Assembly (NCBI GenBank): GCA_030148745.1
Contig: JASBSV010000055.1
Location: 1 to 64,000 of the forward strand
DNA from: Paracoccaceae bacterium
GTDB taxonomy: Bacteria > Pseudomonadota > Alphaproteobacteria > Rhodobacterales > Rhodobacteraceae
Reading direction: 5' to 3'
Length of the DNA stretch: 64,000 nt
Part shown: piece by piece, positions 22,321-27,046 of the stretch
How positions within the stretch are numbered: the stretch's first letter is position 1
How the letters are laid out: each line of letters starts with the position of its first letter
The notes under the pieces: model-generated
What the model saw: the letters and a program-made list of their open reading frames with translations, nothing else
Database searches by the model: none
What the model was told of the DNA's origin: nothing
Position numbers and translations under genes: made by a program

Positions 22321-23745
22321 GTGAAACGGCTTTTTGCGCGCCTCAAACGCATGTTCCGGCTGAGTTACGGACAGAAGATTTTTCTTCTGGCCACGATCCC
22401 GCTTATCGCCGCCGCCGCCATCGCGCTGCTTGTCGCCTTTCAGTCACGCCAGCTTGCCGAACGCGAGATCGCCGCGCTTGAGGCGCAACTGATCGCGGCC
22501 AAACGCAAGGAGATGAAAAATTACATCGCCCTTGCCCGCACCGCCTTTATCAACATCTATGGCCGCGCCGGGCCGGGCGATGAAAAGGCGAAACTGGCGG
22601 TGACGCAGATCCTTTCGGCGATGATCTATGGTCAGGACGGCTATTTTTTCGTCTTCGATTATGACGGCAATAATCTGGTCTCGCCGCGGCAGACCTATCT
22701 GATCGGAAAAAACTGGCGTGATCTCAAGGACATCAACGGCACTCCTATCACGAGCGAGCTGATCCGGCTGGCACGCAAGGGCGGCGGCTATCACAGTTTT
22801 GACTGGATCAAACCCTCGACCGGGGAGACCGCCCGGATGATCGCCTATGTCGCGGGCCTGCAGGACTGGAAATGGGCGATCGGCACGGGGATATTCATTG
22901 ACGATGTGTTGGAAACCGTGGCCGCCGCGCGCTCGACCACACAGGCGCGGATCCGCAGCACCTTTGTCTGGATCGGGGTGATCACCCTTGCCGCGCTTTT
23001 TATGGTCTTTCTGACCGGCCTCCTGATCACCATCCGCGAGCGGCGTCTGGCCGATGCCAAGCTCAAGGAGTTGACCCAGAGAATTTTTGACACGCAGGAA
23101 GAGGAACGCAGCCGCGTGGCGCGCGAGCTGCATGATTCCATCAGCCAGATCCTTGTCGGCGCGCGCTATGCGCTGGAACTGGCGCGGCGGCATCTGACCA
23201 ATGGCGATCAGCGCGCGCCCGGCAGCCTGAACAAGGGGATCGACGGGCTTTCGGGCGCGATTCAGGAGGTCCGCCGGATTAGCCGCGATCTGCGTCCCGG
23301 GGTGCTGGACGATCTGGGCCTTGGCCCCGCGCTCAAGGCCCTGACGGATGAATTTTCCACCCGCACCGGGATCGAAACCGATTTCGAGACCGTGGTGTTC
23401 AGCAACCGGCTGGACAAAGACAGCAAAATCGCGCTTTACCGCATCGCGCAGGAAGCCCTGATGAACATCGAGCGCCACTCGGGCGCCAGCCGCGTCTCGC
23501 TCAAACTGGGCGGGCACAAGCGCGGAGCGACGATGCGCATTCAGGACAACGGGTGCGGCATCGCCCCGCCCGATCAGCTGCGCATACATAAATCCGGTAT
23601 CGGGATCAGAAACATGCAGGAACGTATGGAACAGCTTGACGGAACATTACGTATCCTGTCCTCGCGCAGCGGCACCATCGTCGAGGCCGAAGTCCCGCTA
23701 AGCCATCTGTTGCCGCCCGAAAGCAAAAAGAAAGCAAGCGCATGA
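22321..23745 (+). CDS. cache domain-containing sensor histidine kinase (HisKA_3/NarX type)
   Basis: Two TMs flanking a cache-like region (MIYGQDGYFFVFDYDGNNLVSP); ERSRVARELHDSISQ H-box; HATPase region. Confidence 0.9.
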   Translation: MKRLFARLKRMFRLSYGQKIFLLATIPLIAAAAIALLVAFQSRQLAEREIAALEAQLIAAKRKEMKNYIALARTAFINIYGRAGPGDEKAKLAVTQILSAMIYGQDGYFFVFDYDGNNLVSPRQTYLIGKNWRDLKDINGTPITSELIRLARKGGGYHSFDWIKPSTGETARMIAYVAGLQDWKWAIGTGIFIDDVLETVAAARSTTQARIRSTFVWIGVITLAALFMVFLTGLLITIRERRLADAKLKELTQRIFDTQEEERSRVARELHDSISQILVGARYALELARRHLTNGDQRAPGSLNKGIDGLSGAIQEVRRISRDLRPGVLDDLGLGPALKALTDEFSTRTGIETDFETVVFSNRLDKDSKIALYRIAQEALMNIERHSGASRVSLKLGGHKRGATMRIQDNGCGIAPPDQLRIHKSGIGIRNMQERMEQLDGTLRILSSRSGTIVEAEVPLSHLLPPESKKKASA

Positions 23746-24386
23746 CCCAGCAGATCCGTGTCGTGATCGTGGATGATCACCCGATGGTCACCGAAGGCAT
23801 TCAGGCCATTCTGGAAACCTATGACGATATTCGGGTCGTGGGCACCCTTGCCAATGGCCGGGAGGCCATAGACGAGGTCAGCACGCTGGCCCCGGATGTG
23901 ATGCTTCTGGATCTCAACATGCCCGAGGTGGGCGGGCTCTCCGCCACCGAGATCATTCTTGAGCGCCGCCCCGGCACCCGCATCCTGATCCTGTCGATGC
24001 ATGACAGCGCCGAATATATCTCGACCGCGCTGTCGCATGGCGCGATGGGCTATATCCTCAAGGATGTGCCCACCGAAGAGATCCGCACCGCGATCGACAC
24101 CGTCATGCGCGGCGAGCGGTATCTTTGCACCGGCGCCACCGCCTCGCTGGCGCCAAAAACCGCGGACGGGCGCGAGCCGCTGACATCGCGCGAACAGACG
24201 ATCCTGCTTGAACTGGCGCAGGGCAAGACCAACCGCGAGGTCGCGGGCGAGCTTGATATCTCGGTGCGCACGGTCGAAACCCATCGCAAGAACATAAAAC
24301 GCAAGCTTGGCATCAGCTCGACCGCCGGGCTAACGCGCTATGCGCTGGAGCATGGGGTGCTTCAAGGCACCGGCGTTGGGTTTTAG
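23742..24386 (+). CDS. LuxR/NarL-family response regulator
   Basis: Receiver domain plus LTSREQTILLELAQGKTNREVAGELDISVRTVETHRKNIKRKLG HTH; overlaps the kinase gene by 4 nt. Confidence 0.93.
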   Translation: MTQQIRVVIVDDHPMVTEGIQAILETYDDIRVVGTLANGREAIDEVSTLAPDVMLLDLNMPEVGGLSATEIILERRPGTRILILSMHDSAEYISTALSHGAMGYILKDVPTEEIRTAIDTVMRGERYLCTGATASLAPKTADGREPLTSREQTILLELAQGKTNREVAGELDISVRTVETHRKNIKRKLGISSTAGLTRYALEHGVLQGTGVGF

Positions 24387-24473
24387 CGGGTGTTTGTTGC
24401 CGCCGCAGGCAGGGCGCGCGCAACATTGCAAAAGAATTACCGCGCCCAGAATAACTTTTTCACCAACGGCAGG

Positions 24474-24502
24474 TTGACGCCCCCTTTGACCCGCCATAAG
24501 GT
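24474..24502 (+). promoter_or_regulatory. putative sigma70-type promoter of the ilvB leader
   Basis: TTGACG - 17 nt - TAAGGT; predicted TSS only a few nt before the leader-peptide ATG. Confidence 0.55.
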
Positions 24503-24515
24503 CTCGCCCACGAAA

Positions 24516-24578
24516 ATGGGAGTATCCGGGGTGCAAAACCTTCTAGTCGTAGTGGAAACTTGGCGCATGGGCCGGTAA
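24516..24578 (+). CDS. ilv attenuator leader peptide MGVSGVQNLLVVVETWRMGR
   Basis: 20-codon ORF with consecutive Leu-Leu-Val-Val-Val codons, stop inside the 5' arm region of the antiterminator. Confidence 0.8.
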   Translation: MGVSGVQNLLVVVETWRMGR

Positions 24579-24629
24579 CGGACACCCGTTCGGTACCCCA
24601 TGCGCCCCCGTCCCGACGGGGGCTTTTTT
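24562..24629 (+). promoter_or_regulatory. ilvBN transcription attenuator (antiterminator 24562-24571/24597-24606; terminator 24604-24629)
   Basis: GGCGCATGGG/CCCATGCGCC perfect 10-bp pairing, alternative to GCCCCCGT-CCCG-ACGGGGGC + T6. Confidence 0.8.
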
Positions 24630-24663
24630 ATGTCGCACGGATGCGAAACTTGGAGAATGAAAG

Positions 24664-26421
24664 ATGACACGTCAAATGACCGGCGCGAAGATGGTGATCC
24701 AGGCTCTGAAGGATCAGGGCGTGGATGTCGTATTCGGCTATCCCGGCGGCGCCGTCCTGCCGATCTATGACGAAATCTTTCAGCAGAACGATATCCGCCA
24801 TGTTCTGGTGCGCCACGAACAGGGCGCGGTTCATGCCGCCGAAGGCTATGCGCGCTCGACCGGCAAGCCGGGCGTCTGCCTTGTAACTTCGGGGCCCGGC
24901 GCGACAAATGCCGTCACCGGCCTGACCGACGCGCTGATGGACAGCATCCCGATCATCGTTCTGACCGGACAGGTTCCCACCTTCATGATCGGCAATGACG
25001 CCTTTCAGGAGGCCGATACCGTTGGCATCACCCGCCCCTGCACCAAACATAACTGGCTGGTGCGCGAGACTGAAAAACTGTCGGATGTCATTCATCAGGC
25101 GTTTCACGTCGCAACCAATGGCCGGCCCGGCCCGGTTCTGGTCGATATTCCCAAGGATGTGCAATTTGCCAGCGCCGCCTATACCCCCCCGGGCAAGGCG
25201 CGCACCGCCCATTACGCCCCGCGCGTCAAAGGCGACATTCAGGCGATAACCGATCTGGCCGAGCTGATCGAAAAGGCCGAGCGCCCGGTTTTCTATACCG
25301 GCGGCGGTGTCATCAACTCGGGCCCCGGCGCAAGCCATCTGCTGCGCGAACTGGTGGGCGCCACGGGCTTTCCCATCACCTCGACGCTCATGGGTCTGGG
25401 CGCCTATCCCGCCTCGGGCGAGCATTGGTTGGGCATGCTGGGGATGCACGGGCTTTACGAGGCCAATCTGGCGATGCATGACTGCGATCTGATGATCAAC
25501 ATCGGCGCACGGTTCGACGACCGGATCACCGGCCGCGTCGACAGTTTCAGCCCCGGATCAAAAAAGGCGCATATCGACATCGACCCTTCGTCGATCAACA
25601 AGGTGATCCATGTCGATATTCCGATCATCGGCGATGTCGGCCATGTTCTGGAAGACCTTCTGAAGGTCTGGAAATCGCGCGGGCGCAAGACCAACAAAGA
25701 AGCGGTAGCCGCATGGTGGAAGAAAATCGGCGAGTGGAAAAAGGTCGATTGCCTGAGCTTTGATCAAAGCGGCAAGACGATCCTGCCGCAATATGCGCTG
25801 AGCCGTCTTGAGGCGCTGACCAAAGACCGCAAAGACCGCTTTATCTGTACCGAAGTGGGCCAGCATCAGATGTGGGCAGCGCAATACATGGGGTTTGAAG
25901 AGCCCAATCACTGGATGACATCGGGCGGTCTGGGCACCATGGGCTATGGGTTTCCCTCGTCGGTCGGGGTGCAGATGGCCCATCCCGACGCTCTGGTCAT
26001 CAATGTAGCGGGCGAGGCCAGCTGGCTGATGAACATGCAGGAGATGGGAACGGCGGTCCAATACCGCCTGGCGGTCAAACAGTTCATCCTGAACAACGAA
26101 CGGCTGGGCATGGTGCGCCAGTGGCAGGAGCTTTTGCACGGCGAACGCTATTCCCAAAGCTGGTCCGAGGCGCTGCCAGATTTCGTGAAACTGGCCGAGG
26201 CTTTTGGCGCCAAGGGCATTATCTGCAGCGATCCTGCCGATCTGGATGACGCGATCATGGAGATGCTCAACCACGACGGACCGGTGATCTTTGACTGTCT
26301 TGTCGAGAAACATGAAAACTGTTTCCCGATGATCCCCTCGGGCGAGCCGCATAACAAGATGCTGCTTGGCGCGGCCTCGACCCAGGACGCAATCGGCTCG
26401 TCCGGTGCTGTTCTGGTCTGA
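24664..26421 (+). CDS. ilvB: acetolactate synthase large subunit
   Basis: ThDP enzyme; MTRQMTGAKMVIQALKDQGVDVVFGYPGGAVLPIYDEIF. Confidence 0.96.
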   Translation: MTRQMTGAKMVIQALKDQGVDVVFGYPGGAVLPIYDEIFQQNDIRHVLVRHEQGAVHAAEGYARSTGKPGVCLVTSGPGATNAVTGLTDALMDSIPIIVLTGQVPTFMIGNDAFQEADTVGITRPCTKHNWLVRETEKLSDVIHQAFHVATNGRPGPVLVDIPKDVQFASAAYTPPGKARTAHYAPRVKGDIQAITDLAELIEKAERPVFYTGGGVINSGPGASHLLRELVGATGFPITSTLMGLGAYPASGEHWLGMLGMHGLYEANLAMHDCDLMINIGARFDDRITGRVDSFSPGSKKAHIDIDPSSINKVIHVDIPIIGDVGHVLEDLLKVWKSRGRKTNKEAVAAWWKKIGEWKKVDCLSFDQSGKTILPQYALSRLEALTKDRKDRFICTEVGQHQMWAAQYMGFEEPNHWMTSGGLGTMGYGFPSSVGVQMAHPDALVINVAGEASWLMNMQEMGTAVQYRLAVKQFILNNERLGMVRQWQELLHGERYSQSWSEALPDFVKLAEAFGAKGIICSDPADLDDAIMEMLNHDGPVIFDCLVEKHENCFPMIPSGEPHNKMLLGAASTQDAIGSSGAVLV

Positions 26422-26473: not shown

Positions 26474-27046
26474 ATGTCCCCTCTGAAGCTCAAAAAAGGC
26501 TCGTCGAAACATTCCGCCTATGACCTGCGCTCAGGCTACGGCGATACGCAGGAGCGTCATACCATCGCCGTGGTGGTCGATAACGAGGCGGGGGTTCTGG
26601 CCCGTGTAATCGGGCTTTTTTCCGGGCGTGGTTATAACATCGAAAGCCTGACAGTGGCCGAGATCGACCATACCGGGCATATGTCGCGCATCACCATCGT
26701 CACCACCGGCACGCCGCAGGTGATCGAACAGATCAAGGCGCAGCTGGACCGGATCGTGCCGGTACATGAGGTGCATGACCTGACCGTCGAAGGCCGCCCG
26801 GTCGAGCGTGAGCTGGCGCTTTTGAAAGTGACCGGCACCGGCGACAAACGGGTCGAGGCGCTGCGCCTTGCCGATATCTTTCGCGCCAATGTCGTTGACA
26901 GCACCCTGACCTCTTTCGTGTTCGAGATCACCGGCACCTCGGAAAAGATCGACGCATTTGCCGAGCTGATGCAGCCTCTGGGCCTTGAAGAGACGGCGCG
27001 CACCGGCGTTGCGGCCCTGTCGCGCGGCAGTCGCCGCCAAGACTGA
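26474..27046 (+). CDS. ilvN: acetolactate synthase small subunit
   Basis: ACT domain HTIAVVVDNEAGVLARVIGLFSGRGYNIESLTVAE. Confidence 0.95.
   Translation: MSPLKLKKGSSKHSAYDLRSGYGDTQERHTIAVVVDNEAGVLARVIGLFSGRGYNIESLTVAEIDHTGHMSRITIVTTGTPQVIEQIKAQLDRIVPVHEVHDLTVEGRPVERELALLKVTGTGDKRVEALRLADIFRANVVDSTLTSFVFEITGTSEKIDAFAELMQPLGLEETARTGVAALSRGSRRQD

Follow-up and report, generated by a model that had tools for sequence, protein, structure and literature searches.

The window analysed here, a stretch of 64,000 nucleotides from a Paracoccaceae bacterium, carries on its forward strand ilvB, encoding the large subunit of acetolactate synthase (24664-26421, ATG at 24664; NF006581, TIGR00118), followed by ilvN, encoding the small subunit (26474-27046; NF008864, TIGR00119). 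Both genes scored above the curated NCBIfam cut-offs. Inspection by eye placed two genes directly upstream, one for a sensor histidine kinase (22321-23745) and one for a LuxR-type response regulator (23742-24386), the latter ending ~90 bp before the ilvB promoter.

Between the regulator gene and ilvB, and on the strand of ilvB, direct reading confirmed a set of elements that an earlier note had listed at this locus. The promoter consists of a −35 box TTGACG (24474-24479), a 17-nt spacer and a −10 box TAAGGT (24497-24502). It is followed by a short open reading frame containing the run CTT CTA GTC GTA GTG (Leu Leu Val Val Val, 24540-24554), by a pairing which we call helix A, between GGCGCATGGG (24562-24571, codons Trp-Arg-Met-Gly) and CCCATGCGCC (24597-24606), and by an intrinsic terminator T, made of GCCCCCGT (24604-24611), ACGGGGGC (24616-24623) and six T residues (24624-24629), which a separate terminator detection also found. 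A further element, hairpin S (24572-24581, CCG-GTAA-CGG), was found in the minimum free energy (MFE) fold of the inner stretch of helix A and holds the stop codon of the frame in its loop. A generic consensus promoter scan made no call at 24474-24502; a TTGAC plus TAnnGT element is repeated at the promoter position in relatives. Transcription would start near 24509-24510.

To ask how often such parts arise by chance, the region 24440-24663 was shuffled 5000 times with dinucleotide composition preserved. A short ORF with at least five consecutive Leu, Val or Ile codons appeared in 6 shuffles, a 10-bp inverted repeat in 44 and an 8-bp terminator in 3; the three parts together were never obtained (0/5000). 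The fold of the free RNA had a z-score of −1.1, which is uninformative for an attenuator. An Rfam search at the gathering threshold returned only a tRNA, and no convincing further copy of the leader was found in the genome of the window (best E-values 0.04 and 0.34).

The start codon of the leader had to be reassigned. The earlier note had proposed a 20-codon ORF starting at ATG 24516 (MGVSGVQNLLVVVETWRMGR), on a transcript that may have next to no 5′ leader. This frame is present, but its start is not supported. In most of 74 relatives, leaders of 15 codons ending in RMGR align without gap at GTG 24531, and the sister species, the sole genome of the same genus that was searched (CACGAAACAAGGAGTATCCCGAATG), has an ATG at the position of this GTG and no counterpart of ATG 24516. 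A Shine-Dalgarno sequence GGGAG (24518-24522) lies 8 nt 5′ of the GTG, with AAGGAG at the same position in relatives and CAAGGAG in the sister species. Given the alignment and the ATG of the sister species, the most likely start of the leader, ilvL, is therefore GTG 24531, giving the 15-codon peptide MQNLLVVVETWRMGR and a TAA stop at 24576-24578 (ORF 24531-24578), and the in-frame, non-conserved ATG 24516-24518 falls within the ribosome-binding site. Since this ATG overlaps the ribosome-binding site and is absent from the sister species, the leader is not leaderless. The conserved Shine-Dalgarno sequence and a 5′ UTR of ~20 nt before GTG 24531, as measured from the inferred start site, speak against an attenuator of the leaderless type, like that of trpL in S. 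meliloti.

The earlier note had taken the lack of a Leu/Val-rich ORF and of the two stems upstream of orthologous ilvB genes as evidence against its reading; they are not lacking. Among the 80 closest ilvB loci, the genome of the window excluded, nearly all are titled Rhodobacteraceae or genera of that group; the leader anchor was found at 74, where the ORF and the stems are present. These relatives are not independent of each other, and some of the leader-alignment counts given below include the window itself. A covariance model of the leader, R1, was then searched against 150 genomes of the family, one per genus. Matches were found in 132 of them, ~129 lying just upstream of ilvB when coordinates were compared by eye (ilvB itself was found in 149 genomes). 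Most of the non-matching loci that were inspected carry a diverged but analogous leader, which keeps the Leu/Val/Ile run, helix A, hairpin S and terminator T with new sequences; no recognisable leader was found at seven.

The usual leader has 15 codons, in the order M-x-x, five Leu/Val/Ile, G-x-x, RMGR and stop; nearly every relative has one of these three branched-chain residues at each of codons 4 to 8. The segment CGCATGGG is unchanged in 74/74 leaders while the remainder varies. The Arg codon is always CGC, and the codon before it has G as third base in 73 of the 74, with a variable amino acid. Lastly, in leader L053 a stop codon occurs ahead of RMGR, and the RNA arm is nonetheless kept. 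The invariance, the constant CGC, the third-base G and the case of L053 therefore point to selection on RNA pairing rather than on the end of the peptide.

Alignments were also examined for covariation. Helix A showed 3 double changes and a pairing score above that of all shuffles (0/500 as high), on scant variation. Terminator T was paired in 95% of cells, with 17 double changes, and again 0/500 shuffles scored as high. A hairpin S pair encloses the stop codon in 70 of 74 leaders (MFE of the inner stretch), with covariation not beyond that of shuffles among close relatives. Other stop-codon hairpins occupy its place in diverged leaders, such as GGGGC-TAG-GCCCC (L295) and GAACCC-TGATT-GGGTTC (L289). 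Past the terminator stem, the spacing G−10 Y−1 G+1 formed by the last G of the stem, the U-tract and an NTG (24622-24632; G24622, T24631, G24632) is kept in 62 of 77 relatives, and it resembles that of the consensus elemental pause. A pairing of the conserved ATGCG after the U-tract with the 5′ arm of helix A was considered and discarded, as it showed no covariation and is absent from diverged leaders; the conserved NTG is better explained by the pause spacing.

Folding was then computed with a ribosome placed at different positions on the leader (partition functions, 72 leaders). A ribosome sitting on the stop codon or on codon 8 left the base of the terminator paired with a probability of ~1.0; at codon 8 the modelled ribosome already covers the helix A arm. 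With the ribosome at codons 4 to 7, the mean dropped to 0.61-0.74, the difference being taken by helix A. In the window itself, the value at codons 4 to 7 was ~0.45-0.5, the remainder again going to helix A. In most leaders the terminator was still favoured at equilibrium with a stalled ribosome. Under Leu/Val shortage, the modelled shift in folding would thus favour antitermination, if only weakly at equilibrium.

Conservation, and folding with the ribosome at different positions, strongly support a ribosome-mediated attenuator responding to branched-chain amino acids, and we put the probability that the ilvBN leader is a ribosome-mediated transcription attenuator at about 85%. The earlier note had named the attenuator translational; its ribosome-mediated, branched-chain character stands, but the control should be called transcriptional. 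The following sequence of events can be proposed. Transcription would begin ~20 nt before the 15-codon ORF, which has its own Shine-Dalgarno sequence. When charged tRNA-Leu and tRNA-Val are plentiful, the ribosome would reach the stop codon, where it would open hairpin S and cover the first arm of helix A; helix A being blocked, the terminator would fold and the transcript would end ~120 nt from its start. When Leu or Val is scarce, the ribosome would stall at codons 4 to 8 and leave this arm free, so that helix A, enclosing S, could form beside the terminator and polymerase could read into ilvB. Helix A might hinder T through the 2-3 nt overlap, which would detach the terminator stem from the U-tract, through crowding at the RNA exit, or both. 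We infer stalling, read-through and the effect of helix A on the terminator from the parts described above. The operon would very probably be off when valine, leucine and isoleucine are plentiful.

How helix A acts is the less settled part of this reading. The earlier note had the upstream stem block the terminator, and the slightly more probable of two accounts, to which we give somewhat less than an even chance, is the classical one of mutually exclusive structures, in which helix A sequesters the 5′ side of the terminator. The two structures do overlap in the window, by 3 nt only (24604-24606); in the MFE fold of the stalled state, helix A is extended and T is 3 bp shorter and away from the U-tract; and the pairs C64-G604 and G63-C605 are almost invariant. 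Close relatives show an overlap of 2-3 nt in 61 of 73 cases, which supports the blocking stem only in part. In the rest, however, the overlap is 1 nt or none, and in eight diverged leaders (L285, L293-L298 and L300) helix A and T are separated by +3 to +6 nt. In the folds made for diverged family members with such a gap, the two helices were compatible, each being able to form in full. Several sister lineages thus have no overlap at all, so that simple mutual exclusion does not hold throughout.

A second account, slightly less probable, is that overlap is not needed, and that the rigid helix formed by A and S, abutting the base of T, hinders the zipping of the terminator in the RNA exit channel. 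Such crowding is conceivable because A stays next to T even without overlap: helix A is retained despite changes in its sequence and in the overlap, and across diverged and transporter leaders (see below) the distance from the end of A to the start of T stays between −4 and +8 nt, and that from stop codon to T between 26 and 41 nt. Coaxial stacking of the two helices, on the other hand, could stabilise T just as well. One branch may get by with a few shared bases while another uses a different mechanism; alternatively, the abutting helix is itself the obstacle. The natural variants with overlapping, abutting and separated helices offer a way to learn how an antiterminator acts without competing for terminator bases.

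Attenuators of this kind are already known upstream of ilvB. One was reported in 1994 for ilvBN of Caulobacter crescentus by Tarleton, Malakooti and Ely, as cited in PMC4117421. It resembles the window in belonging to an alphaproteobacterial ilvBN operon and in having tandem branched-chain codons and a Rho-independent terminator, the likeness being one of description; read-through upon starvation is described for Caulobacter, whereas it is inferred for the window. Alphaproteobacterial ilv attenuators were also predicted by Vitreschak et al. in 2004 (cited in PMC1273637 and PMC2573895). They have, like the window, a branched-chain leader peptide and a terminator before an acetolactate synthase operon, and the prediction is called 'ilvB leader peptide' in PMC1273637. 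The leader of the window is one more attenuator of this kind, well supported and with its start codon corrected.

Beyond the family, the leader was met in another gene context. A search of Alphaproteobacteria with R1 yielded strong matches in other families (64-76 bits) that are not at ilvB, and these precede a gene for a Bcr/CflA-type transporter (TIGR00710). Since E-values of home-made models are rough, they are to be read as such; class-wide matches above E 1e-5 were left out of the interpretation. About ten further families of Alphaproteobacteria have such transporter leaders, as do four members of the family of the window. The peptides are MHILIVVVGERRLDR, MNPKSVVVVVSRRCMVR, MTVTTVVVGAWRLDR and alike. 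Using only ten transporter leaders, without ilvB leaders or members of Rfam family RF02502, we built a second model, R2. It matched ilvB leaders at 60-90 bits and two RF02502 members at about 1e-5, and yielded five more leaders, all before the same transporter type. The association occurs sporadically: in the family of the window, the leader is missing from most of the Bcr/CflA homologues that were examined, and the Bcr/CflA gene of the window's own genome has no such leader.

Both contexts occur among named replicons of Rhizobiaceae and relatives, which resemble the genomes matched by RF02502 (see below). The leader precedes acetolactate synthase in Sinorhizobium meliloti Ak57 (pSymB, as annotated) and in Shinella sp. 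PSBB067, whose enzyme is 68% identical to the product of ilvB in the window, and it precedes the transporter in Rhizobium gallicum, Phyllobacterium and Rhizobium etli, the R. etli gene being annotated as a Bcr/CflA subfamily drug resistance transporter. From the two loci of the first kind (L366, L367) set against the three of the second (L365, L370, L371), the control element has apparently been exchanged within this group. In two Burkholderia records, the leader of the window matched MKTTCFIVVVHRRRVR and MKTACFIVVVHRRRVR, again before a Bcr/CflA-type gene, which suggests transfer between classes, Burkholderia being Betaproteobacteria. Wherever the gene downstream of a strong match or in a named record was examined, it belonged to one of these two types. 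A weaker R1 match (E 7e-6) in the family of the window, L282 (G415:C6:280180-281900), is the exception: it lies away from ilvB, and its downstream gene was assigned to neither type.

We read the ilvB and transporter leaders as sharing ancestry; convergence is unlikely because the non-coding parts are shared. This suggests that ilvB and the transporter are under a common branched-chain amino acid signal, the purpose at the transporter being a matter of conjecture.

RF02502 (Atu_C8), filed in Rfam as a 'Rhizobiales sRNA', appears to belong here too. Its model aligned over its full length with window positions 24533-24637, at 26.5 bits (E 0.001-0.003), below its gathering score of 50, and reached 98.8 bits on a transporter leader (L255:1329-1448). 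The consensus contains a frame encoding MIILVVGPRMGRAV, then UAA, and the transporter gene lies downstream in all six genomes of that taxonomic order that scored above the cut-off. Atu_C8 and the window have in common, in the same order, an ORF of the form [I/L/V]VVG-(x)-RMGR, a GCGCAUGGG/CCCAUGCGC helix, a stop-codon hairpin and a terminator. Unlike in the window, a gap of 8 nt separates helix A from T in the Atu_C8 member checked (L255), and Atu_C8 is filed as an sRNA and not as an attenuator. On these grounds Atu_C8 is likely a leader-peptide attenuator homologous to the ilvB leader family, which would give a likely function to an unexplained Rfam family. In the A. tumefaciens sRNA literature that was searched, C8 is nowhere described as a leader; nor did the literature searched more widely report the transporter link or Atu_C8 as an attenuator, which is not proof of absence.

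We give roughly even odds to a single family of (V/I/L)VVG-x-R-M-x-R attenuators, Atu_C8 included, exchanged between acetolactate synthase and Bcr/CflA-type transporter genes across Alphaproteobacteria and Burkholderia. If this is true, both genes would answer the same Val/Leu-tRNA signal, and the transporter might import branched-chain amino acids or their precursors, or export compounds, such as inhibitors of acetolactate synthase, by which the cell would be deprived of them. The recurrent association with the leader gives this transporter a physiological role that can be tested, one connected with branched-chain amino acids.

The transporter leaders also bear on what is sensed. Some of those found before Bcr/CflA-type genes are poor in Leu, Val and Ile (L120, MYLSNTAGVGARRPGR), as would be expected if the leader responded to any slowing of translation, by antibiotics for example, and not to Leu/Val supply. 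We hold this to be improbable, as the Leu/Val/Ile run is found at ilvB in nearly every relative, which fits amino acid sensing. Equally improbable is that the terminated RNA or its peptide acts mainly in trans, as rnTrpL/peTrpL does (PMC7298713): the related RF02502 is catalogued as an sRNA, but the leader keeps its position directly before ilvB or the transporter gene, and its conservation resides in the attenuator helices. The S. meliloti trp attenuator is, like the proposed ilvBN attenuator, a leader-peptide attenuator, and it releases a small RNA; it differs by its Trp codons, by being leaderless, and by the trans functions shown for its products.

Outside the family of the window, ilvB is preceded by other short ORFs. 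One of these, different from the leader described here and ending like IFxFIRxFLLT, recurs before ilvB in many other alphaproteobacterial families, and is possibly another type of leader.
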